DNA from: Massilia polaris
Lineage (GTDB): Bacteria; Pseudomonadota; Gammaproteobacteria; Burkholderiales; Burkholderiaceae_D
Assembly (NCBI RefSeq): GCF_012927275.1
Contig: NZ_JABBGG010000005.1
Span: 124,001-188,000, forward strand
DNA length: 64,000 bases
Reading direction: 5' to 3'
In this document: piece by piece, positions 156-59,459 of the stretch
How the letters are laid out: each line of letters begins with the position of its first letter
Position numbering within the stretch: the stretch's first letter is position 1
The notes under the pieces: model-generated
The model's database searches: none
What the model was told of the DNA's origin: nothing
Seen by the model: the letters and a program-made list of their open reading frames with translations, nothing else
Made by a program: the position numbers and the translations under genes

Positions 156-2825
<2,670 letters not shown>

Positions 2826-2828
2826 GCG

Positions 2829-3341
2829 ATGAACGCCCTCCGCCAGGCGCTGCCGCGCGCCGTCGCCCTGATCGTACTTGCTGCATCGTTGACCGCGTGC
2901 GGCTTCCACCTGCGCGGGTCGGACGGCCGCTTCAACATGCCGTTCCAGAGCATCTACCTGGCCTTCCCCGAGACCTCGCCGCTCGGCACTGAGCTCAAGC
3001 GCAACCTGCGCGGCGGCGACACCAGGGTGGTGGCCGAGGCGGACCAGGCGCAAGCCCGTTTCGACGTGCTGTCCGAATCGCGCGGCAAGGCTATCCTGTC
3101 GCTGAACAGCCAGGGCCGCGTGCGCGAATACCTGCTGACCTACACGCTGGTGTTCCGCGTGCGCGACGCCGCCGGCGCCGAGCTGCTCGGGCCCACGGAG
3201 ATCAGCCTGAAGCGCTCGATCACGTTCAACGAAACCGAACTACTGGCCAAGGAATCGGAAGAAGCGCTGCTGTACCGCGACATGCAGACCGACCTGGTAC
3301 AGCAGATCCTGCGCCGCCTGGCCGCGATCAAGCCAGTGTAA
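2829..3341 (+). CDS. lptE: LPS-assembly lipoprotein LptE
   Basis: This is the outer-membrane lipoprotein that plugs the LptD barrel and helps insert lipopolysaccharide. The first 24 residues form a lipoprotein signal peptide with the lipobox LTAC, followed directly by the family-typical GFHLRG motif after the acylated cysteine. The length of 170 residues fits. It sits between leuS and holA, as in many beta- and gammaproteobacteria (the old rlpB position), with only 3 and 9 bp gaps. Confidence 0.95.
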   Translation: MNALRQALPRAVALIVLAASLTACGFHLRGSDGRFNMPFQSIYLAFPETSPLGTELKRNLRGGDTRVVAEADQAQARFDVLSESRGKAILSLNSQGRVREYLLTYTLVFRVRDAAGAELLGPTEISLKRSITFNETELLAKESEEALLYRDMQTDLVQQILRRLAAIKPV

Positions 3342-3350
3342 GGACAGGCG

Positions 3351-4367
3351 ATGCAACTGCGGTTTGACGCACTCGAAGGACACCTGGCCAAATCGCTCGC
3401 GCCGCTGTATGTGATCAGCAGCGACGAGCACCTGCTGGCGCTGGAGGCGGCCGACAAGATCCGCAAGGCCGCGCGCGCCAACGGTTATTCCGAGCGCGAC
3501 GTGCTGACGGTGGAACGCACCTTCAAGTGGGGCGAGCTGCTGGCCGCGAACAATGCGATGTCGCTGTTCGGCGACAAGAAGCTGATCGAACTGCGCATCC
3601 CGACCGGCAAGCCGGGCAAGGACGGCGGGGCGGCGCTGCAAAGCTACGCCAAGGACCTCAATCCCGACAACCTCACGCTGATCACGCTGCCGAAGCTGGA
3701 CTGGCAGACCGCCAAGGCGGCCTGGGTGGCGAACCTGCAGCAGGCAGCGGTGTATATCGAGATCCCGACCATCGAACGCGCGCAGCTGCCGGGATGGATC
3801 GGCGCCAGGCTGGCGGCGCAAGGGCAGAGCGCGGACCGCCAGGGACTGGACTTCATCGCCGACCGGGTCGAGGGCAACCTGCTGGCCGCGCATCAGGAAA
3901 TCCAGAAACTGGGGCTGCTGCATGAGCCGGGCAAGCTGAGCTTCGAGCAGATTCACGACGCGGTGCTGAACGTGGCGCGCTACGACGTGTTCAAGCTCAG
4001 TGAGGCGATGCTGTCGGGCGATGCGGCGCGGCTGGTGCGCATGCTGGAGGGTTTGAAAGGCGAGGGCGAGGCGCTGCCGCTGGTTTTATGGGCCGTCGCC
4101 GAGGAAATTCGCACGCTGTTAAAATTGAAGTCCGGGATGGCGCAGGGAAGGCCGCTCGGCGTGCTGCTCAAGGAGTACCGGATCTGGGGTCCGCGCGAGC
4201 GCATGATGGAGCCGGCGCTGCGGCGCATCAGTCTTCCAACGCTGGAAGCGGCGATGCGCGAGGCGGCGCAGGTCGACAAGATGATCAAGGGCCTGCGCGC
4301 CAGGGCGTTCGCGGGCGATGCGTGGGATGCGATGCTGCAGCTGGCTTTGAAGGTGGCCAGGGGCTGA
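3351..4367 (+). CDS. holA: DNA polymerase III delta subunit
   Basis: This clamp-loader subunit opens the beta sliding clamp. The 338-residue protein begins with the typical L-x-x-L-A-P-L-Y-x-x-x-S-x-E sequence (residues 12-26). It carries the E-R-x-V/L, L-F-G-D-K-K-L-I-E-L and A-x-[FA]-x-G-D-A-W motifs expected along HolA. It is third in the leuS-lptE-holA run, and an AAGGACAGG ribosome binding site precedes its ATG. Confidence 0.96.
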   Translation: MQLRFDALEGHLAKSLAPLYVISSDEHLLALEAADKIRKAARANGYSERDVLTVERTFKWGELLAANNAMSLFGDKKLIELRIPTGKPGKDGGAALQSYAKDLNPDNLTLITLPKLDWQTAKAAWVANLQQAAVYIEIPTIERAQLPGWIGARLAAQGQSADRQGLDFIADRVEGNLLAAHQEIQKLGLLHEPGKLSFEQIHDAVLNVARYDVFKLSEAMLSGDAARLVRMLEGLKGEGEALPLVLWAVAEEIRTLLKLKSGMAQGRPLGVLLKEYRIWGPRERMMEPALRRISLPTLEAAMREAAQVDKMIKGLRARAFAGDAWDAMLQLALKVARG

Positions 4368-4444
4368 TCGAATCGGTGGAAGAGCGCAGGGCTCGGCGCC
4401 CCCCCCGTACATCCGCCGAATAGCTGCATAAAGAACCGCACACT

Positions 4445-5710
4445 ATGAACATCACCGAATACATGCAAACCACCGGCCGCCAGGCCCGCGCCGCATCGCG
4501 CGCGATGGCCCGCGCCGACACCGCCACCCGCAACCGCGCACTGCTGCTGATCGCCGACGCCATCGTTCGCGACGCCGCCCTGCTGCGCGCCGCCAACCAG
4601 CTCGACCTCGACGCAGCCATGGCCGCCGGCCTCGATCCCGCCATGATCGACCGACTGACCCTGTCCGACGCCGCCATCGCGACCATGGTCGAAGGCCTGC
4701 GCCAGATCGTCTCGCTGCCCGATCCGGTCGGCGAGATCTCGAACATGAAAGTCCGCCCGAGCGGCATCCAGGTCGGCCAGATGCGCGTGCCGCTGGGCGT
4801 GATCGGCATCATCTACGAAGCGCGCCCGAACGTCACGGTGGACGCGGCCGGCCTGTGCATCAAGAGCGGCAACGCCACCATCCTGCGCGGCGGCTCGGAA
4901 GCGATCAACTGCAACCGCGCGCTGGCCAAGATTGTCGCCGAAGGCCTGTCCGGCGCCGGCCTGCCTGCGCACGGCGTCCAGATCGTCGACACCACCGACC
5001 GCGCCGCGGTCGGCGCCATGATCACCATGCCGGAGTACGTCGACGTCATCGTCCCGCGCGGCGGCAAGGGCCTGATCGCGCGCCTGATGGCAGAGGCGAC
5101 GGTCCCGATGATCAAGCACCTCGACGGCATCTGCCACGTCTACATTGACGCCAAGGCCGACCTCGACAAGGCGGTGCCGGTGGCGTTCAACGCCAAGTGC
5201 CACCGCTACGGCACCTGCAACACGATGGAGACGCTGCTGGTCGAGCGCAGCATCGCGCCCGCCGTGCTGCCGGAACTCGCGCACCTGTACGCGGCGAAGC
5301 AGGTGGAACTGCGCGCCGACCCGGAGGCGTACGCGCTGCTGGCCGGCTACCCGCACCTGGTTGAAGCGGTTGAAGAGGACTGGAAGACCGAATACCTGGC
5401 GCCTATCCTCGCCGTCAAAATCGTGGCTGGCCTCGACGAGGCGATGGACCACATCTCCGCCTATTCGTCGAAGCACACCGAATCGATCATCACCGAGGAC
5501 TACAGCGCCGCGATGCGCTTCCTGCGCGAGGTGGACTCCGCATCGGTGATGGTGAATGCCTCGACCCGCTTCGCCGACGGCTTCGAATATGGCCTCGGCG
5601 CCGAAATCGGCATCTCGAACGACAAGCTGCATGCGCGCGGCCCGGTCGGACTGGAAGGCCTTACTTCCCTCAAGTACGTCGTGTTCGGACACGGCGAAGT
5701 ACGTAACTAA
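4445..5710 (+). CDS. proA: Gamma-glutamyl phosphate reductase
   Basis: This enzyme catalyses the second step of proline synthesis, NADPH-dependent reduction of gamma-glutamyl phosphate to the semialdehyde. The 421-residue protein has the aldehyde-dehydrogenase fold signature [17 protein letters not shown]. It also has the catalytic-cysteine segment [12 protein letters not shown] at about residues 256-267. The C-terminal [20 protein letters not shown] block is diagnostic. proB is not adjacent. The gene follows holA after 77 bp. Confidence 0.97.
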
Positions 5711-5727
5711 CCTAAGACTGGACCCAC

Positions 5728-6138
5728 ATGCTCTGGATTAAAGCGCTGCACATCGTTTTCGTTATCTCCTGGTTCGCCGGCCTGTTCTACCTGCCGCGCA
5801 TCTTCGTGAACCTGGCGCAGGAAACCGAAACGGTGGCGCATGCGCGCCTGCTGCTGATGGCGCGCAAGCTGTATCGCTTTACGTCGATGCTGATGATTCC
5901 CGCGCTGGTGTTCGGCGTCTGGCTGTGGCTCGGCTACGGTTTCAAAGGCGGCTGGCTGCACGCCAAGCTTGCGCTGGTCGTGCTTGCGATCGGCTACCAT
6001 CATGCATGCGGTTCGCTGCTGAAGAAGTTCGAGAACGCCGCCAACAAACGCAGCCACACCTGGTACCGCTGGTTTAACGAGGTGCCGGTCGTGCTGCTGC
6101 TGGCGATCGTCATCCTGGTGGTGGTCAAGCCTTTCTGA
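5728..6138 (+). CDS. hemJ: HemJ/CopD-family membrane protein (protoporphyrinogen oxidase-like)
   Basis: The 136-residue protein is predicted to have four transmembrane helices. It starts with WIKALHIVFVISWFAGLFYLPR, whose His and W-F-A-G-L-F-Y-L-P-R motif are hallmarks of the HemJ (UPF0093) family. That family oxidises protoporphyrinogen IX to protoporphyrin IX in the membrane. The gene begins 17 bp after proA. A haem role agrees with hemH elsewhere in the window, although the two are not linked. The general label CopD family is the safe fallback. Confidence 0.8.
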   Translation: MLWIKALHIVFVISWFAGLFYLPRIFVNLAQETETVAHARLLLMARKLYRFTSMLMIPALVFGVWLWLGYGFKGGWLHAKLALVVLAIGYHHACGSLLKKFENAANKRSHTWYRWFNEVPVVLLLAIVILVVVKPF

Positions 6139-31089: not shown

Positions 31090-31258
31090 CGCGCGCCTTA
31101 CGCTGCACAGCTGCAAGCCGGCCGGCGGCGTTGCGCACGCAACGATTTTTCGCGAATCACTATTGTAATTTTCCAATCACCTGCCAAACTGATGCGTAGA
31201 CCGCGTGGCGCTACGGGCATCGGGCCACCACACACCTGTTGGCCACCGGAGGCAGATC

Positions 31259-32149
31259 GTGAATCGACACCTGATTTTCGTGCACGGGCGCGCGCAGCAC
31301 CAAAAAGACTCGTTGGCCCTCAAGAATGAATGGATCGATTCGCTCAAAGCTGGGCTTGCGAAAAGCGGTCTCACATTAGCCCTGCCCGATGAGCGGATCC
31401 GCTTTCCTTATTACGGGGACACGCTGGATCAAATGGCGCACGGCCTCAGCAGCAACGATGCTGCCGATGTGGTTGTTCGCGGTCTCGACCTTTCTGCGAG
31501 TGAAGAGGAATTCTTTGAAGCCTACCTTGCCGAGATGGTCAGCGCGGGCAAGCTTTCCCAGGCCGAGATCGAGGCGGCAACGCGCGGCCTCGACATCAGG
31601 CGGGGCCCGTTGAATTGGGGATGGGTGCAGGCGATCCTCAGCGTGCTGGATAAAACGGCGCCGGGAGTCAGCGCAGCCAGCGTGGCATTGTTCACCAACG
31701 ACGTCTATCAATACCTTCACCAAACACCGTTTCGCATCGAAATGGATAAAGGCGTCAGGTCCGCGTTCTTGCCGGACAGCGAAGCCGTCGTTGTGAGCCA
31801 TTCGCTCGGCACCGTCATCGCCTATAACGTGCTGAGCAATGACGATGCCGCACCGGCGCTGCGCGTTCCTTTGTTTGTTACGCTCGGATCCCCGCTCGCG
31901 GTCAGTGCAGTAAAGGCGAGGTTGCCGCCCGTCGCCCATCCGAAAAACGTCGATCACTGGTACAACGCGATGGACAAGCGCGATGTGGTATCGCTGTTCC
32001 CGCTGACGTCGGATCATTTTGCGGTTTTCCCGCAAGTTGAAAACAACACCGGTGTGAACAATCCCACGGCCAACCACCACGGCATATCCGGCTACCTCGA
32101 AGACCAACATGTCGCAAGGCGCATCTACAACGCGCTGGTCGCGCCTTAG
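31259..32149 (+). CDS. Alpha/beta hydrolase of a putative CHAT/SIR2-STAND defence operon
   Basis: This 296-residue protein begins HLIFVHGRAQ, the oxyanion-hole strand of alpha/beta hydrolases. The nucleophile elbow is S-H-S-L-G with Ser182 in VVSHSLGTVIAYNVL. Later DKRDVVSLFP and NHHGISGYL could supply Asp and His. No signal peptide is seen. I chose GTG 31259 because GGAGG lies 7 bp before it. The next gene on the same strand, 65 bp on, encodes a CHAT protease, so the hydrolase could be its substrate or an effector. Lipase, esterase or peptidase activity cannot be told apart here. Confidence 0.75.
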   Translation: MNRHLIFVHGRAQHQKDSLALKNEWIDSLKAGLAKSGLTLALPDERIRFPYYGDTLDQMAHGLSSNDAADVVVRGLDLSASEEEFFEAYLAEMVSAGKLSQAEIEAATRGLDIRRGPLNWGWVQAILSVLDKTAPGVSAASVALFTNDVYQYLHQTPFRIEMDKGVRSAFLPDSEAVVVSHSLGTVIAYNVLSNDDAAPALRVPLFVTLGSPLAVSAVKARLPPVAHPKNVDHWYNAMDKRDVVSLFPLTSDHFAVFPQVENNTGVNNPTANHHGISGYLEDQHVARRIYNALVAP

Positions 32150-32214
32150 ACCAAGGGGATGCATTGCGATGGGTGCCCGGCGCGGCCGGCTAATAACAAG
32201 AAGAGGGCAGTCCA

Positions 32215-34434
32215 ATGGTACCCCCCGAGAGCAGCGATACGGCGTTTAATGGAGAAAATCCTTCCGGCACGGGCCGAGTCGAGGTGATAGTAGGCAATGC
32301 CGATCTGCGCTTTACCGAGCAAACGCTGCTGGTGGGGCACTATCGATCGGCGATGCTGACCGGTGCGGAAGCGGTGATCGATGGGCTTCTTGGCGGCCGC
32401 ATGAGCCGCGCGATGCTTGCAGGAGTCTATCCGGGCGCGCCCGGCTCGCATCAGGTATTTCGTAATCCTTGCGATCGTGAGGACGGTGCGGGCCCGGTCT
32501 GCCTGCCCACCGTGGTTGTCGCCGGTTTGGGCGATGAAGGCGAGTTGCGCGCAGCTGACCTTGTTCATAGCGTTCGCCAGGCAATCCTGGCCTATGCGCA
32601 ACGCTTATCCGAGGCGCATCCCGATTCGCCGCTATTGGAATTTTCCATGGCGGCGACCCTGGCCGGCAGTGGCGGAAGTGGCATCACCGCGGCCAGTTCT
32701 GCGCTGGCCATTGTCCAGGCCGCGCATGAGGCCAATTCGAAGCTGCGGCTGGTCGAGGGGTGGCCACGGTTGCGCCGGCTGACCCTGGTAGAACTGTACC
32801 TCGAGCGAGCCATCGAGGCCTGGCACGCGCTGCATATGCAGGAGCTGGCGGATCGGAACATGCTGACCTTGGTCGGGAAAATCCATGCTGGCCCTGGCGG
32901 ACTTCGCCGTTTGCCCGACACCAGTTACCGCGGCACGAGTTACGATTTCATCAGCGCCCTCCAGTTCGCCGGGCCGGCCGCGAAATATCCGGGCATCGCG
33001 TATACGCTCGACACCAGGCGTGCCCGGGCAGAGGTGCATGCGCACCGTGCGCAAGCCACGCTGGTCCGCGAGCTGGTAGCGAAAGCGTCGAACGAACCCG
33101 CCACCAATCCGGAAATCGGGCGCACCCTGTTCAATTTGCTGATTCCGGTCGAAATGGAACCGTTCCTCGGCGGCTCCAGCGAACTGGTTATGGAGCTTGA
33201 CCGCGCTACTGCCGGCATTCCCTGGGAACTGCTGGATACGAATGCCGATGTGGATGCCGCCGACAAGCGGCCGTGGTCTATTCGCAGCAAGCTCGTTCGC
33301 AAGCTGCAGCTCAACGATTTTCGCCCAATCCTTCGTCCCGCCGGTCTCGGCGATAAAGTGCTGATCATTGGCGATCCGAAAACCAGTTCGCCGGCCTATC
33401 CGCCGCTGCCCGGAGCAAAGCGCGAAGCACTTACCGTTGCCGAACAGCTGACCCGCAGCGGGGGTATTCACCGGAACCAGGTGACATTACGCGCCGATCA
33501 GAACGACGCCAACGCCATCCTGATCGCATTGCTGAAAGATCCTTACCAGATCGTTCACGTGGCCGGCCATGGCGAGCCGGACGAGCACGGTGGCGTGGTG
33601 CTGTCAGGCGACGGGGCTTTTCTGGGCGCCAGTGAGATCAATGCGATGCGTAACATTCCGGACCTGGTTTTCCTTAACTGCTGTCATTCGGCAGGGCGCG
33701 ATGCGTCGGCCGTCCTGGTGCCCTACGACCGTGCGCAATTCGCTGCGAATATCGCCGAGGCCCTGATCCGGATCGGTGTGCGCTGCGTAGTCGCCGCCGG
33801 ATGGGCTGTCAACGACAACGCAGCAGAACGCTTCGCCACCGAATTCTATGTCGCATTGCTCAACGGTTCGCGTTTCATCGAGGCGGTCGGCCAGGCGCGC
33901 GCGGCCACGTGGACTGCCTATCCTGGCTGCAATACATGGGCGGCCTATCAATGTTACGGCGATCCCGACTGGCGCTGGCGCAGCGCGCGTGCGGCCGACA
34001 CGGCCAGGCGTCTGGCAATTCCACTGAGCGAAGAGTTCAGCGTCATCTCCTCGCCAGTGTCGCTGGCAATGGCGCTTGAGACGATCGCCGTGCAGGGCAC
34101 GCTCGGCGGCAAGCCGCACGAGGTGCTGCTGGCCAAGCTGGAATACCTGGAGACCGAATTCGCCAGCCTTTGGGGCGATATCGGCTCCATCGCCGATGGC
34201 TTTGGCCGTGGCTACGCCAGTGTGCGGCATGCCGACAAATCGATCGAATGGTACCGCAGGGCAGTCTGCGCGGCCGACGGCAGCGCTTCGATGCGCGCCG
34301 CCGGTGCGCTTGGAAACCTGCTTCAGGCGCGCGCCGGCGCCTCGTCCGCCGCAGGCGAGGGCGATGCCGCCGAAGCGTCGGGCTGGACAGAGCGCGTCGC
34401 TGCACTTCAACAGTATTGCCCGGCTAAAAGCTGA
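32215..34434 (+). CDS. CHAT-domain caspase-like protease
   Basis: The 739-residue protein ends in a CHAT (caspase HetF associated with TPRs) protease domain, about residues 380-620. The dyad is His452 in VAGHGEPDEHGG and a Cys in LNCCHSAG; Cys490 aligns with the usual L-S-A-C-x-x-G. The N-terminal 300 residues are not a known domain to me. The stretch VVVAGLGDEGEL and the helix after it recall the N-terminal domain of leucyl aminopeptidases. About 100 further residues follow the CHAT domain. The ATG follows AGAGGGCAG. A SIR2-STAND gene comes 52 bp later. Confidence 0.85.
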   Translation: MVPPESSDTAFNGENPSGTGRVEVIVGNADLRFTEQTLLVGHYRSAMLTGAEAVIDGLLGGRMSRAMLAGVYPGAPGSHQVFRNPCDREDGAGPVCLPTVVVAGLGDEGELRAADLVHSVRQAILAYAQRLSEAHPDSPLLEFSMAATLAGSGGSGITAASSALAIVQAAHEANSKLRLVEGWPRLRRLTLVELYLERAIEAWHALHMQELADRNMLTLVGKIHAGPGGLRRLPDTSYRGTSYDFISALQFAGPAAKYPGIAYTLDTRRARAEVHAHRAQATLVRELVAKASNEPATNPEIGRTLFNLLIPVEMEPFLGGSSELVMELDRATAGIPWELLDTNADVDAADKRPWSIRSKLVRKLQLNDFRPILRPAGLGDKVLIIGDPKTSSPAYPPLPGAKREALTVAEQLTRSGGIHRNQVTLRADQNDANAILIALLKDPYQIVHVAGHGEPDEHGGVVLSGDGAFLGASEINAMRNIPDLVFLNCCHSAGRDASAVLVPYDRAQFAANIAEALIRIGVRCVVAAGWAVNDNAAERFATEFYVALLNGSRFIEAVGQARAATWTAYPGCNTWAAYQCYGDPDWRWRSARAADTARRLAIPLSEEFSVISSPVSLAMALETIAVQGTLGGKPHEVLLAKLEYLETEFASLWGDIGSIADGFGRGYASVRHADKSIEWYRRAVCAADGSASMRAAGALGNLLQARAGASSAAGEGDAAEASGWTERVAALQQYCPAKS

Positions 34435-34486
34435 ACGATGGCGGCTGGCCCGCCGGTGCGCCGGCGACTTCCTTCAAGGGGACCGT

Positions 34487-37441
34487 ATGTCCAAGAACTA
34501 TGCAATCGATCCGGTTCTGGTGGAGCGCTTCGCGCATGGAAATGGCACCATTTTTGTCGGCGCCGGCATCTCGCTCGGGGCACGATTGCCATCCTGGTCG
34601 AAACTGATGGCGCCGCTACGCAAGGACTTGGGCGCCGAGGTCGGCGAGGGGGCGAGCTATCTCGACATCGCCGAGCTGTATGAGACCAAGCACAGCCGCG
34701 GAGTCCTGATTCAATACCTGAAGGACCAATTGGGTGACGTCCGGTTCCAGTTGACGCAGACTCATGAGCTGATTGTGAGCATGCCGGTCCAGCGGATCTA
34801 CACAACGAATTTCGACAGCCTGTTGGAACAGGCGTCGCGCAAAAAACAGATCAACCGAAACGTCATCTTCAACGCGTCGCACGTGGGATTTTCGGACACC
34901 TCCACCTTGTCGATCGTGAAGCTGCACGGCGACCTGGACGATGCGGATTCGCTGGTGATCAGCGCCAAGGATTACTACAGCTATTTCAACCGCAATCCGG
35001 CTGTGGCAGATCTCCTCAAGGTCGAACTGCAAACGCACACGGTGCTGTTTCTCGGCTATAGCTTCAGCGACCCGAACTTCGGGATGGTTTTAGGTAAAGT
35101 CGCCGCGCAGTCGGGTTCGGTCCGGCCCTTGCTGTACAGCCTGCAGTTGCAGCCGACGGCGCTGGCGATGCAGGCGCTGCATGCACGCGGTGTCAAGGTC
35201 ATTCCGATACCCGAAAAAGGCGGCACACCGAAGGCCGATGAAGAGATCGAGCAGTGGTTGCGTTGCTTCCGGAAGGCGTTGATTCGCTATGATCGTCGCA
35301 AATCATGTGGGCAACTGACCGGGGATGGCGTGCGTGGCCAGTTCGCGGCCCCGCAGTTTCCGCATTCGACATTCCGGATGCACACGCGCAGTCGCATTGA
35401 AGCAGGCCTGCAATCGGATTTTCGGGTGGTTGTCGTCAAGGGCGAAGCCGGCGTCGGCAAGACGACCCTGGTCGCCGCCGCTGTGGCCGACTGCGTGCAT
35501 AGTGGCGGGATTATTTCGATAACCGATGCGTTCGAGCAGGTGATCTGGGTGGGGAGTTCCGTCAACCAAGACCAGTGTGATCATTCAACTCCCCGCCATG
35601 AAGAGGGTTGCGCCGCATGCAAGGAGCAGCGGGCGGCGCACCAGGTCGCCCATCTTGAGCGCATCCTCGATGCGATCGCCCTCGCGCTCGATGAATTTAC
35701 CGCGCCCGGGAAGGCTCGGGAGTTGGACGCTGATCGGATAAAGCGCAAGCGTTTGCGGATCAACGGACTGCTCCAGGAACGCAAGGTCATCGTGGTGCTG
35801 GAAGACCTGCCGCGCGATGCCGAAGAGGTCAAGCATTGGCTCGAGAACGCCGGGCCCTATGCGAATCCGAAAAGCCGGATTATTGTGACATCCCGTACTG
35901 CTGTCGTGACCGGCTTTGTCGTCGAGGTCGAGCGCTTGTCGCATGAAGAAGCCGTCGAGATGGTGGGCGAGTGCGCGCGCTCGCTGATGCTGCGGCGGCA
36001 TATTGCGGCCGGACTCAGTGAGGAACTGGTTCAGCGGCTGGCGCGTGAAACCTGTGGCAACCCCCAGACAATCCGGATGGCCGTCGGACTGATTGTAGGG
36101 ACCGGCAAACTCGACGCGGCATGCCTTGGCGATGCCGACAACTGGGCCCGGGGTGGCGATTCGAATATTGGCCGCTTGTTTGATATTTACATCGCACGGA
36201 TATGGGATGCAATGACTGCCAGCGCGTGCACTGTCTTAAGCGCAATGCTCGCGTTTCCGGACAGCGTGCCAGTGCCTTCGCGCTTGCTGCGCAAGGCCGC
36301 GGCGCTCGATGCCACCCTCTTCAGCAAGGGCGCGGAGCTCATTGTCCGCTTCGGCATTGTCGAGCGTGATGTGGCCAACGATACGTTCCGGATGCAGTCG
36401 ATCCTGCGCGATTATCTGCAAAAGTTCGTGGATCAGCGAAGCGTGGACGAAGCATGCGACGCATTGGCGAAACACCTGCTCACCTTTCTCGGCGACAGGA
36501 ACGTTCTGTGCCGGCCCGAGATCGATGCCCCGTACTGGAACACGCTGGTGCGCGACGAAATGGCAAAGGTGGATCCGTACTGGCCGATTATCCGCCATGT
36601 CATGCAGCGCGCTGTCGCGAAAGGATGCGTAGCGAAATTTGTCATGTTGCTGACCCATTACATGGATAGCCGATTCCTGAATACCGACCGGCTGGCATTC
36701 CTTGGAAATGCGCTTGCCGAGATGGATGGGGCTGATCCGCATTTGGCGGCCCTGCTTCGCATCGATGCGCTGGCCTGGACCTACATCGAGGAGGGCTTGC
36801 ACAAACAGGCGCAAGACGAAATCAAGAAGGGCCTGGAACTACTCAACGGCAACCATGGTGTGGAACTTCGCGCGATTGCCGACGCATGGTTTGCACGCAT
36901 AGAGGGATCGAGCGGGCGATTTGTGAACGCCACTCAAAAAATCGCTGATGCGATCGCATTGGCAAAAACCATTCCAACACAATATTGGATCGAGGCGCGC
37001 GTGAAAATGATCGCGGGCGATCTGGAAATGATGCAAAAGAACGCGAGCTGCGCCCTGGAACTGTACAGGGAGGCCGAGGCGCTTGCCGAACAGTACGGTG
37101 GCGAGGGACACGGGTACCAGACCCGGCCCCGCATCGGGATTGCATTACTGGAACTGAAACGCGATTCCGAAGCGCGCCGTATCTTCAAGACGCTCGAGGA
37201 GAACGCCAAGGTGGCGACTGGGCGCCTGTACGGCGAATATGGGCTGGCGCTGGCCGACGCGCGTGCCGAGGCTACCCCGGCATCCTCGCTTCGATTACGG
37301 AATGTACGCCGCGAGATCGCACGCCGCGACAGCGGCAATGTGTTGATGGGTCTCGCCAATCGCCTGTATCAAGAGATTTCGTCGGAAAGTATGGTAAGCG
37401 CCGAGGCACGGCCGCCGGCCGCTGTCCTGTTCCCGAACTGA
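34487..37441 (+). CDS. SIR2-STAND NTPase with TPR-like C-terminus
   Basis: The 984-residue protein starts with a SIR2 domain: FVGAGIS (from about residue 23), YTTNFDSLLE with N108, and KLHGD with H147, so the NAD-binding and catalytic residues are intact. A STAND/NB-ARC-type ATPase follows, with P-loop GEAGVGKTT at 319-327 and Walker B KVIVVLED at 433-440. A winged-helix-like part and an alpha-helical TPR-like region (about 720-960) come after it. This matches the SIR2-STAND (Avs5-like) layout known in anti-phage proteins. An AAGGGG site precedes the ATG. Base composition looks a little less GC-rich than in its neighbours. Confidence 0.85.
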   Translation: MSKNYAIDPVLVERFAHGNGTIFVGAGISLGARLPSWSKLMAPLRKDLGAEVGEGASYLDIAELYETKHSRGVLIQYLKDQLGDVRFQLTQTHELIVSMPVQRIYTTNFDSLLEQASRKKQINRNVIFNASHVGFSDTSTLSIVKLHGDLDDADSLVISAKDYYSYFNRNPAVADLLKVELQTHTVLFLGYSFSDPNFGMVLGKVAAQSGSVRPLLYSLQLQPTALAMQALHARGVKVIPIPEKGGTPKADEEIEQWLRCFRKALIRYDRRKSCGQLTGDGVRGQFAAPQFPHSTFRMHTRSRIEAGLQSDFRVVVVKGEAGVGKTTLVAAAVADCVHSGGIISITDAFEQVIWVGSSVNQDQCDHSTPRHEEGCAACKEQRAAHQVAHLERILDAIALALDEFTAPGKARELDADRIKRKRLRINGLLQERKVIVVLEDLPRDAEEVKHWLENAGPYANPKSRIIVTSRTAVVTGFVVEVERLSHEEAVEMVGECARSLMLRRHIAAGLSEELVQRLARETCGNPQTIRMAVGLIVGTGKLDAACLGDADNWARGGDSNIGRLFDIYIARIWDAMTASACTVLSAMLAFPDSVPVPSRLLRKAAALDATLFSKGAELIVRFGIVERDVANDTFRMQSILRDYLQKFVDQRSVDEACDALAKHLLTFLGDRNVLCRPEIDAPYWNTLVRDEMAKVDPYWPIIRHVMQRAVAKGCVAKFVMLLTHYMDSRFLNTDRLAFLGNALAEMDGADPHLAALLRIDALAWTYIEEGLHKQAQDEIKKGLELLNGNHGVELRAIADAWFARIEGSSGRFVNATQKIADAIALAKTIPTQYWIEARVKMIAGDLEMMQKNASCALELYREAEALAEQYGGEGHGYQTRPRIGIALLELKRDSEARRIFKTLEENAKVATGRLYGEYGLALADARAEATPASSLRLRNVRREIARRDSGNVLMGLANRLYQEISSESMVSAEARPPAAVLFPN

Positions 37442-58052: not shown

Positions 58053-59459
58053 ATGCTGTCATTCTCTACCGAATTTCCTGTGCCACCCTCAGTGTCACGT
58101 CAAGAATTCTGCGATCTGGTAAAAACGTGGATTTCAGGTTCGCGCTACACTCGATTTAAATTTCAGGCCATTTCTGATCTCGGGGCTGGCGAAAGCTGGG
58201 AGGCAATTGAAGATAGTGAAATAATTGAATCCCTGGCCGAGGTCACTGCGGACACCGAATCAGTTGCGATAACTTATAGAAAGCAAGACGCGGATTTCGA
58301 GTGGATATCGACGGTTGTTCTTGCGATTTTGCCGTCGTCATCATGGATCAGCGTAAGAGTTGAGTGTGAGCCACTCCATCCCAGAGCTAGAGTACCGAAC
58401 GCTCGAAAACCGGTTTTGGTTAAGCTACTATTGGAAAAATTCGGTGGAGGAGTCGATGGTGCCTTTAAAGTAGGTGCTGCACCAATAGTTCTTACCCAAT
58501 CCGAGCTAGACCTCGCAACCAAGTGCATCGAAGGCGACACGGGTTCGTACTTGCCGATTGTGTATGTAAGTGCTGCTTTTAACGGGGTTCACCTCGTTGA
58601 TCCCCATGACCTGGCGAGGGATTTAGCCGGAATGGCCCACGTCGTAGTGGAGCCAGATCGAGCGTTTTCCTTGAACTTGATGGAAGAGGTTCAGCGGAAG
58701 AATCCGTACGGAGGAACGATTGCGCTTTATTGGCCAGAGGGAGGCGGGCGCCGTTCGTTCTTTGCGCGACCGGGAACCGAAACGCCTGACCATTTACTCG
58801 AAGCGATTTTTGACGAGATTCGTCTTTCGATGATAAACCGCAGGCCGTTGACCCGGTGTACGTTAGCAGCCGTAAAAGAATTAAAATCAAGGCGGCTTAT
58901 CAATGCTTTGAAGGACGTTGGATCCGCAGAGGTTGATAAATATATTGAGGCGTTCGAGGCCGACCTTCAATCAAAAATTGCGTCTCTCCAGGCAGCAGAA
59001 TCGGAGATTGATCGACTGAAAGCGGAAATCCGCCGATACGAAGCGCAGGAAACGGCAGCGGTCGGTCTGGCGTTGAATACCGGAGCAGAGCGCGATTTTT
59101 ACGATGGAGAACTGCATGGTATCGTTCATGACGCAATCTCGGCGGAAATTTCGCGCGTCCCAGCAGATAGCCGCCGACTCCACGTTCTTCAAGCGCTTCA
59201 AGCCGCAAACGCAATCGCAGAAGGAAGGACTAACTATCGCGAAAAGATAAAAGAGCTCCTGCGTGGGTATCAGAGTATGGATAACCGTACAAAGAGGGAG
59301 CTTGAAATGATCGGATTTACGATTACCGAGCAGGGAAAGCACAATAAACTTGTATATCGGGACGATGACCGATATACGTTTACGCTGGCTAAATCGGGAA
59401 GCGACCATCGGGGCGGACTGAACGCGGCTGGGGATATAAGCCGACTTCTGTTTTCGTAG
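58053..59459 (+). CDS. Unrecognised accessory protein with coiled coil and HicA-like C-terminus
   Basis: I do not recognise the 468-residue protein as a whole. The N-terminal half has alternating strands and helices (WISTVVLAILP, LPIVYVSAAFNGVHLVDP, AHVVVEPDRAFS, GTIALYWPEGGGRRSFF). Residues about 300-345 form a coiled coil. The C-terminal 60 residues (TITEQGKHNKLVYRDD ... FTLAKSGSDHRGGLNA) look like a dsRBD/HicA-like fold. A very good AAAGGGGAAG site precedes the ATG. Codon use and base content are AT-richer than the neighbours. No partner gene is adjacent. Confidence 0.65.
   Translation: MLSFSTEFPVPPSVSRQEFCDLVKTWISGSRYTRFKFQAISDLGAGESWEAIEDSEIIESLAEVTADTESVAITYRKQDADFEWISTVVLAILPSSSWISVRVECEPLHPRARVPNARKPVLVKLLLEKFGGGVDGAFKVGAAPIVLTQSELDLATKCIEGDTGSYLPIVYVSAAFNGVHLVDPHDLARDLAGMAHVVVEPDRAFSLNLMEEVQRKNPYGGTIALYWPEGGGRRSFFARPGTETPDHLLEAIFDEIRLSMINRRPLTRCTLAAVKELKSRRLINALKDVGSAEVDKYIEAFEADLQSKIASLQAAESEIDRLKAEIRRYEAQETAAVGLALNTGAERDFYDGELHGIVHDAISAEISRVPADSRRLHVLQALQAANAIAEGRTNYREKIKELLRGYQSMDNRTKRELEMIGFTITEQGKHNKLVYRDDDRYTFTLAKSGSDHRGGLNAAGDISRLLFS

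Follow-up and report, generated by a model that had tools for sequence, protein, structure and literature searches.

A hydrolase-CHAT protease pair with an optional SIR2-STAND gene: a candidate anti-phage cassette in Massilia polaris

Three adjacent genes of the soil bacterium Massilia polaris encode an alpha/beta hydrolase, a CHAT protease and a protein joining a SIR2 domain to a STAND NTPase (SIR2-STAND), and the question they raise is whether they constitute one anti-phage system, as an earlier note on this DNA had proposed, or two. The block lies in a stretch of 64,000 nucleotides (assembly GCF_012927275.1, contig NZ_JABBGG010000005.1, positions 124,001 to 188,000 of the forward strand), the whole of which we refer to as the window. 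Our analyses show that the hydrolase and a protease belong together and that SIR2-STAND is an optional companion. We tentatively regard the block as a horizontally moving, probably anti-phage cassette of two modules that may act by abortive defence, with the CHAT protease licensing the hydrolase.

The hydrolase gene (P0001; window positions 31259-32149, + strand, 296 amino acids) begins with a GTG start behind GGAGG, the CHAT gene (P0002; 32215-34434, + strand, 739 amino acids) with an ATG at 32215, and the gene of the SIR2-NB-ARC-TPR protein (P0003; 34487-37441, + strand, 984 amino acids) with an ATG behind AAGGGGA. None of the three open reading frames (ORFs) is interrupted and their starts are plausible; the spacers measure 65 bp between hydrolase and CHAT genes and 52 bp between CHAT and SIR2-STAND genes. 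The claim that these are three intact genes on one strand was borne out by the ORF, start-site and Pfam checks, and the catalytic motifs that had been called intact proved to be conserved in 18 hydrolases, 43 CHAT homologs and three SIR2-STAND homologs.

Pairing of the hydrolase with a protease

A protease adjoins or is fused to the hydrolase in 23 of 25 loci that carry a close relative of it: 14 caspase-like, five CHAT and four trypsin-like. These 25 loci, the window included, are those among the loci retrieved that matched our hydrolase hidden Markov model (HMM) at E<=1e-60, and they do not form an unbiased sample; two duplicate contigs, L197 (identical to L170) and L199 (identical to L172), were removed from the count. 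Plasmids account for eight of the 25 loci (eight regions from 59 records), and the listing from which these were selected already named proteases under some of them (H10, H11); without the plasmid loci the count is 15 of 17. The two loci that lack a protease call are L147, which runs to the end of its contig, and L149, in which the neighboring 715-amino-acid protein has no Pfam match. The models were trained on sequences from the set itself, the hydrolase HMM on 18 of its members and the caspase HMM on 11 partner proteins. The caspase calls for L165, L187 and L198 were made with that caspase HMM alone, those for L146 and L171 have Pfam C14 matches just below the curated cut-off, and the partners in L162, L163, L164 and L166 are named "caspase family protein" in their records; the CHAT call for L168 is based on Pfam and the record. 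In another 27 loci, where the hydrolase match was weaker, our own HMMs identified a protease neighbor in three (L188, L190 and L204), a number to be read with the fact that few of these neighbors were put to Pfam, so that protease classes beyond the HMMs would escape.

The gaps between hydrolase and protease genes are short and 4-bp overlaps are frequent. Gene order in the 23 loci follows the class of protease, caspases being encoded before the hydrolase and CHAT or trypsin-like proteases after it, with the exception of L167, a single ORF in which the trypsin part comes first and is fused to the hydrolase. The hosts are mostly Proteobacteria, with single examples from Bacteroidota (L164) and Actinomycetota (L167). 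The profile of the CHAT family to which P0002 belongs does not detect the CHAT partner in Sinorhizobium fredii (L168), which suggests that CHAT proteases were perhaps recruited more than once.

A second link between the CHAT family and hydrolases is provided by gene fusion. Among 66 loci with relatives of the CHAT protein, 55 encode it within one long ORF behind DUF7379 and LCAT-like hydrolases; most of these proteins are about 1,850 amino acids long, are widespread (L015-L078), and have the domain order DUF7379 hydrolase, LCAT-like hydrolase, macro/LAP-N-like domain and CHAT. The other 11 loci comprise one with a separate, adjacent DUF7379/LCAT-like gene, five in which the ORF is cut by the end of the contig, and five without such a hydrolase, namely two Massilia pairs, L043, and L069 and L070, which have no recognizable hydrolase. 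The fused protein of L015 had no PADLOC match at E<=0.001. We considered whether the hydrolase of the window is a family member of the CHAT-fused hydrolases and rejected this, as the profile comparison covered only 53 columns at the nucleophile elbow (probability score 79); the two perhaps share a fold, and we make no claim from these sequences that they form a family.

A further caspase-like ORF is located near the CHAT gene, sometimes adjoining it, in nine of the 66 loci (L016, L020, L024, L031, L041, L043, L045, L065 and L077), which raises the possibility that a caspase and a CHAT protease act in series. In L043, a metagenome-assembled genome from Acidobacteria, positions 1094-6039 hold three genes in a row: one for a caspase, one for a macro-like CHAT protein and, last, a hydrolase-like ORF (a weak hydrolase match). 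This is another three-gene arrangement, carrying two caspase-fold proteases, and the other eight caspase-like ORFs near CHAT genes share 30-68% identity with its caspase.

Other features of the paired loci were also recorded. The trypsin-like partners in L116, L148, L189 and L190 have an N-terminal TPR-S domain, which also matches the tail of four of five CHAT relatives scanned (two above the curated cut-off), making it a sensor-like part common to unrelated proteases. In L147 a single ORF (2182-3696, - strand) near the hydrolase encodes a TIR domain together with an FGE-sulfatase-like domain. L188 carries a caspase-hydrolase pair broken by interrupted reading frames, the fragments of which were scored separately; upstream of it, on that strand, lies a trypsin-like ORF.

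The three proteins

The only Pfam match of the hydrolase is PGAP1, below threshold (0.028). Residues H181, S182, G184, D242 and H274 are invariant among 18 aligned hydrolases, as expected for an active serine hydrolase, and D239 is conserved in at least 90%; the catalytic triad is likely S182, D242 (or D239) and H274. The AlphaFold2 model, made with nine sequences, has a mean predicted local distance difference test (pLDDT) value of 82 and is least certain within an inserted helical segment spanning about residues 56-135, with its minimum at 112-119, while residues 81-100 within the insertion are well predicted. The nearest solved fold is the DDHD domain of Nir2 (E 1.4e-4, template modelling [TM] score 0.46), a weak match, and the modelled likeness to the DDHD phospholipase fold is suggestive only. 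Pfam gave no match to DDHD at E<=1, PADLOC and PHROGs gave no match, and a comparison with PDB sequences returned only five matches, at 0.25-0.34.

The second protein belongs to the CHAT peptidase family (Pfam CHAT, 4.6e-32). It consists of a macro/LAP-N-like N-domain (about residues 22-215), the CHAT domain (300-583, with H448/H452 and C489/C490) and a helical TPR-like tail. H448, H452, C489 and C490 are all invariant in 43 CHAT homologs; following the pattern of the CHAT family, we take one histidine and one cysteine of these to be catalytic. The AlphaFold model (43 sequences) has a mean pLDDT of 82 and a predicted TM score of 0.56, and its fold matches include Csx29 (E 2.8e-9), SAVED-CHAT (6.2e-6), separase, leucine aminopeptidase and macro-domain entries (2dx6, TMt 0.75; macroH2A, 0.68). 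The range of the macro-like domain was placed by target length, by secondary structure and by a stretch (40-143) matching Pfam M17_N. This leucine-aminopeptidase-N-like family (PF02789) is matched by 15 of the 43 homologs; the Pfam listing for them, which covers 25 of 26 families, does not include Macro. Two glycine-containing loops of the N-domain, at residues 41-52 and 149-156, are strongly conserved in the 43 homologs (in the window they contain GHYRSAMLTGAE and GSGGSGI), a pattern of conservation that would fit a ligand site. In PADLOC the protein has a weak SAVED_CHAT match alone (9.2e-5); it has one weak PHROGs match (0.035) and none among PDB sequences at E<=1.

The third protein combines a SIR2 domain (Pfam SIR2_2, 5e-25; N108, D110 and H147), an NB-ARC STAND domain (1e-12; P-loop 319-326) and a helical TPR-like C-terminal part that matches TPR repeats weakly (TPR_12, E=0.75). 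N108, D110, H147 and the P-loop GEAG(V/I)GKT are conserved in the three SIR2-STAND homologs. The SIR2 domain is nearest to those of ThsA, KomC and DSR2, which are also the closest solved SIR2 domains. Assignment to three known systems was tried and rejected. The architecture justifies the designation "Avs5-like" that the protein had been given, whereas the Avs5 model itself does not, matching only part of the SIR2 region (PADLOC E=0.02, residues 95-195; 5.3e-4, residues 111-211, in the homolog from genome G011) of a protein with an NB-ARC NTPase. The match to Thoeris ThsA is limited to residues 12-217 (8.3e-41), the remainder being NB-ARC, and Pfam identified no TIR domain in the three proteins. 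Scores for DSR1/DSR2 fell far below the NCBIfam cut-offs of 1400 (62.2 bits for Dsr2, 32 bits for Dsr1).

Chromosomal setting and the SIR2-STAND gene

The flanking genes were identified as trmB and recQ by NCBIfam, and we compared the surroundings of trmB among ten genomes of the genus. In five, recQ and trmB are neighbors, separated by 215 bp (G001), 3 bp (G011), 271 bp (M. agrisoli), 131 bp (M. soli) and about 110 bp (G015); in four (G007, G012, G014 and G016) they are set apart by other sequence of about 3 kb, and the trmB stretch examined in G010 has no recognized recQ. As the two genes are close together in G001 and G011, the cassette is an insertion relative to those genomes, in agreement with the earlier note. 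A compositional island was considered and rejected, since the GC content of the block (0.59-0.62) is not distinct from that of its surroundings.

Related cassettes differ in their position and content. In M. agrisoli and M. soli (loci L013 and L014, taken as genomes G003 and G005 because coordinates and identities agree) the hydrolase-CHAT pair is situated on the opposite side of trmB, with a spacer of 13 bp to the preceding gene, a conserved one of about 140 amino acids, and is not accompanied by SIR2-STAND. No remnant of this gene was detected by tblastn in the 22 kb around either pair, and no copy at E<=1e-20 elsewhere in the two genomes. G011 has the complete trio at a different locus, beside genes resembling gpx and a PAS histidine kinase (named by eye), so that identical order, strand and adjacency are found at two unrelated chromosomal sites. 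Between the window and M. agrisoli the identities are 71% for the hydrolase and 76% for the CHAT protein, and 97% for both TrmB and RecQ; the corresponding values for G011 are 59%, 60%, 92% and 85%, with 67% for SIR2-STAND. The identities of the cassette proteins are well below those of TrmB and RecQ, implying that the pair has moved, or has changed rapidly next to a stable core. Given that the pair of the window is nearer to those of M. agrisoli and M. soli than to that of G011, the simplest history is an old trio and a single loss, the alternative being two separate gains.

Near full-length homologs of SIR2-STAND were identified in three of 294 sampled genomes of the taxonomic family (M. polaris, G011 and G291) and in one of 369 in a class-level sample (M. 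polaris only). A peptide-pattern scan revealed no relatives in viral contigs, and there were none in plasmids at E<=1e-30. In G291 the gene has no hydrolase or CHAT gene within about 8 kb, and this genome is outside the six of the 294 that have a hydrolase match at E<=1e-10. Co-occurrence of the three families had been set beforehand as the check on the proposed three-gene system, and its outcome is divided. The hydrolase and CHAT genes do belong together, as the pairing and fusion counts demonstrate, while SIR2-STAND accompanies the pair in two of the four genomes with a pair of this type and in one of 53 hydrolase loci, and stands by itself in G291. Its presence in only some of the genomes with the pair, and without the pair in G291, indicates a pair with an optional STAND NADase and not an obligate trio.

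Two further features of the window were noted. A terminator-like hairpin 3' of trmB (31129-31144, + strand) is a possible left edge of the transcription unit; it is a pattern match only, of a kind found at 10 sites in the region versus 6.1 expected from shuffled sequences. A 468-amino-acid ORF (58053-59459, + strand), located where the GC content of the window is lowest (about 0.52), has a weak PADLOC match to HEC-07 (4.4e-7) and is possibly a second defence gene.

Mechanism, alternatives and significance

The reading that we favor, with somewhat less than even confidence, is that of the two-module cassette in abortive defence. In the first module, a lipase-like serine hydrolase would be kept in check, either by its own flexible insertion close to the active site or by its partner, until a triggered caspase-superfamily CHAT protease cleaves or releases it, and the freed hydrolase would attack membrane lipids. 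In the second, the C-terminal part of the SIR2-NB-ARC-TPR protein would sense a phage product, and oligomerization via the STAND NTPase would be followed by cleavage of nicotinamide adenine dinucleotide (NAD). Where both modules are present, the STAND oligomer might supply or reinforce the trigger, and NAD loss and membrane damage would together stop the infected cell. Contextual support for a role in defence comes from a related caspase-hydrolase pair on a viral contig (L170), which adjoins type I restriction-modification genes, and from the carriage of further hydrolase-protease pairs on plasmids. Several observations weigh against this reading: SIR2-STAND is missing from M. agrisoli and M. 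soli, is found in only one (L079, from G011) of the 53 hydrolase loci scanned for a SIR2-STAND-like ORF, and stands in G291 without the pair nearby; the DDHD fold match of the hydrolase is weak; and two plasmid pairs, L162:6103-8864 (Sinorhizobium) and L163:6014-8867 (Bradyrhizobium), have Tat-like twin-arginine N-termini on both the caspase and the hydrolase (by eye; in the L163 hydrolase the signal lies upstream of the annotated start), which suggests that some pairs may act in the periplasm or otherwise outside the cytoplasm.

The first three of these observations would also be expected if the block held two independent defence systems, a hydrolase-CHAT pair and a stand-alone SIR2-STAND NADase, which share an operon and have separate mechanisms. 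We consider this a serious, if somewhat less probable, possibility, and it would also accommodate the finding that no SIR2-STAND-like ORF is present in the 64 CHAT loci L015-L078, some of whose contigs are short. However, it does not by itself account for the retention of order, strand and adjacency of the trio at two unrelated loci, nor for the simplest history of the trio, an old origin with a single loss. It is unlikely that the pair has a non-defence role, such as stress-induced lipid remodelling or programmed lysis, with SIR2-STAND as a passenger. The Tat-like N-termini of the two plasmid pairs and the PADLOC results, absent for the hydrolase and weak for the CHAT protein, are consistent with such a role, but the patchy distribution of the pair, its carriage on plasmids and a viral contig, the restriction-modification neighbor of one related pair, and fast divergence next to a trmB of 92-97% identity all argue against it.

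Quite improbable, in our estimation, is a signal relay in which an ADP-ribose-type molecule made by SIR2 binds to the macro-like N-domain of P0002 and turns the protease on: the macro-fold matches, the conserved glycine loops and the adjacent NADase gene are in its favor, yet by sequence the domain is leucine-aminopeptidase-N-like, and it is conserved in 43 homologs although the 64 CHAT loci lack a P0003-like ORF in the DNA examined. Equally doubtful is its extension to a closed three-step relay in one operon, from a STAND-controlled SIR2 signal via the macro-like CHAT domain to the unlocking of a DDHD-like phospholipase; if true, the signal for a caspase-family protease would be made by a sirtuin, and the proteolytically activated killer would be a lipase.

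The two-module cassette that we favor has likenesses to several known systems. Avs5 and other SIR2-STAND proteins, ThsA and DSR2 similarly have a SIR2 NADase domain N-terminal to a sensor, but the NTPase of P0003 is of the NB-ARC type and there is no SLOG match. Csx29 (the TPR-CHAT protein of Craspase) and SAVED-CHAT rank with the best matches to the fold of P0002, whereas the cassette has no recognized CRISPR or SAVED part and has the macro/LAP-N-like domain instead. Bacterial gasdermin and CARD-NLR systems combine an NLR-like sensor, a protease and a membrane-damaging effector, as the cassette may do; their protease is trypsin-like in place of CHAT, the cassette has SIR2 on its NLR-like protein, and Pfam recognized no CARD in the three cassette proteins.

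Two published accounts are closer to the pair itself. According to Kaur (2020; eLife, PMC7159879), VMAP proteins with a caspase-superfamily domain always have a neighboring alpha/beta-hydrolase gene, and joint action was suggested. The VMAP ternary systems described there are thus alike in placing such a protease beside a hydrolase, but the cassette has no VMAP, vWA or MoxR among its immediate neighbors (the wider surroundings were not scanned for VMAP), its protease is a CHAT protein with a macro/LAP-N-like domain, and it includes SIR2-STAND. The pairing of hydrolase and caspase was already known, and the present locus adds a CHAT-hydrolase pair with an optional SIR2-STAND. In Tuck (2025; Science, PMC12799240), pro-nuclease/protease pairs are described in Hachiman, AVAST, Lamassu and canu, and further enzyme classes are suggested. 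As in those pairs, an effector with a flexible insertion near its active site is encoded beside a protease whose class varies by locus; the effector here is a lipase-like alpha/beta hydrolase versus a metallo-beta-lactamase nuclease there, and activation by cleavage is in our case only inferred. A search of the open-licence PubMed Central literature (listings and the beginnings of abstracts) found no description of the trio, a search that papers under subscription may escape.

The hydrolase family fits the suggestion of further enzyme classes in Tuck (2025), in that a single lipase-like family is found beside caspase-like, CHAT and trypsin-like proteases. If cleavage does activate the lipase, this would parallel the activation of gasdermins by caspases, with lipid hydrolysis replacing pores. 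The Massilia cassettes with and without SIR2-STAND offer a natural comparison for the question of whether an NLR-like NADase drives the protease.

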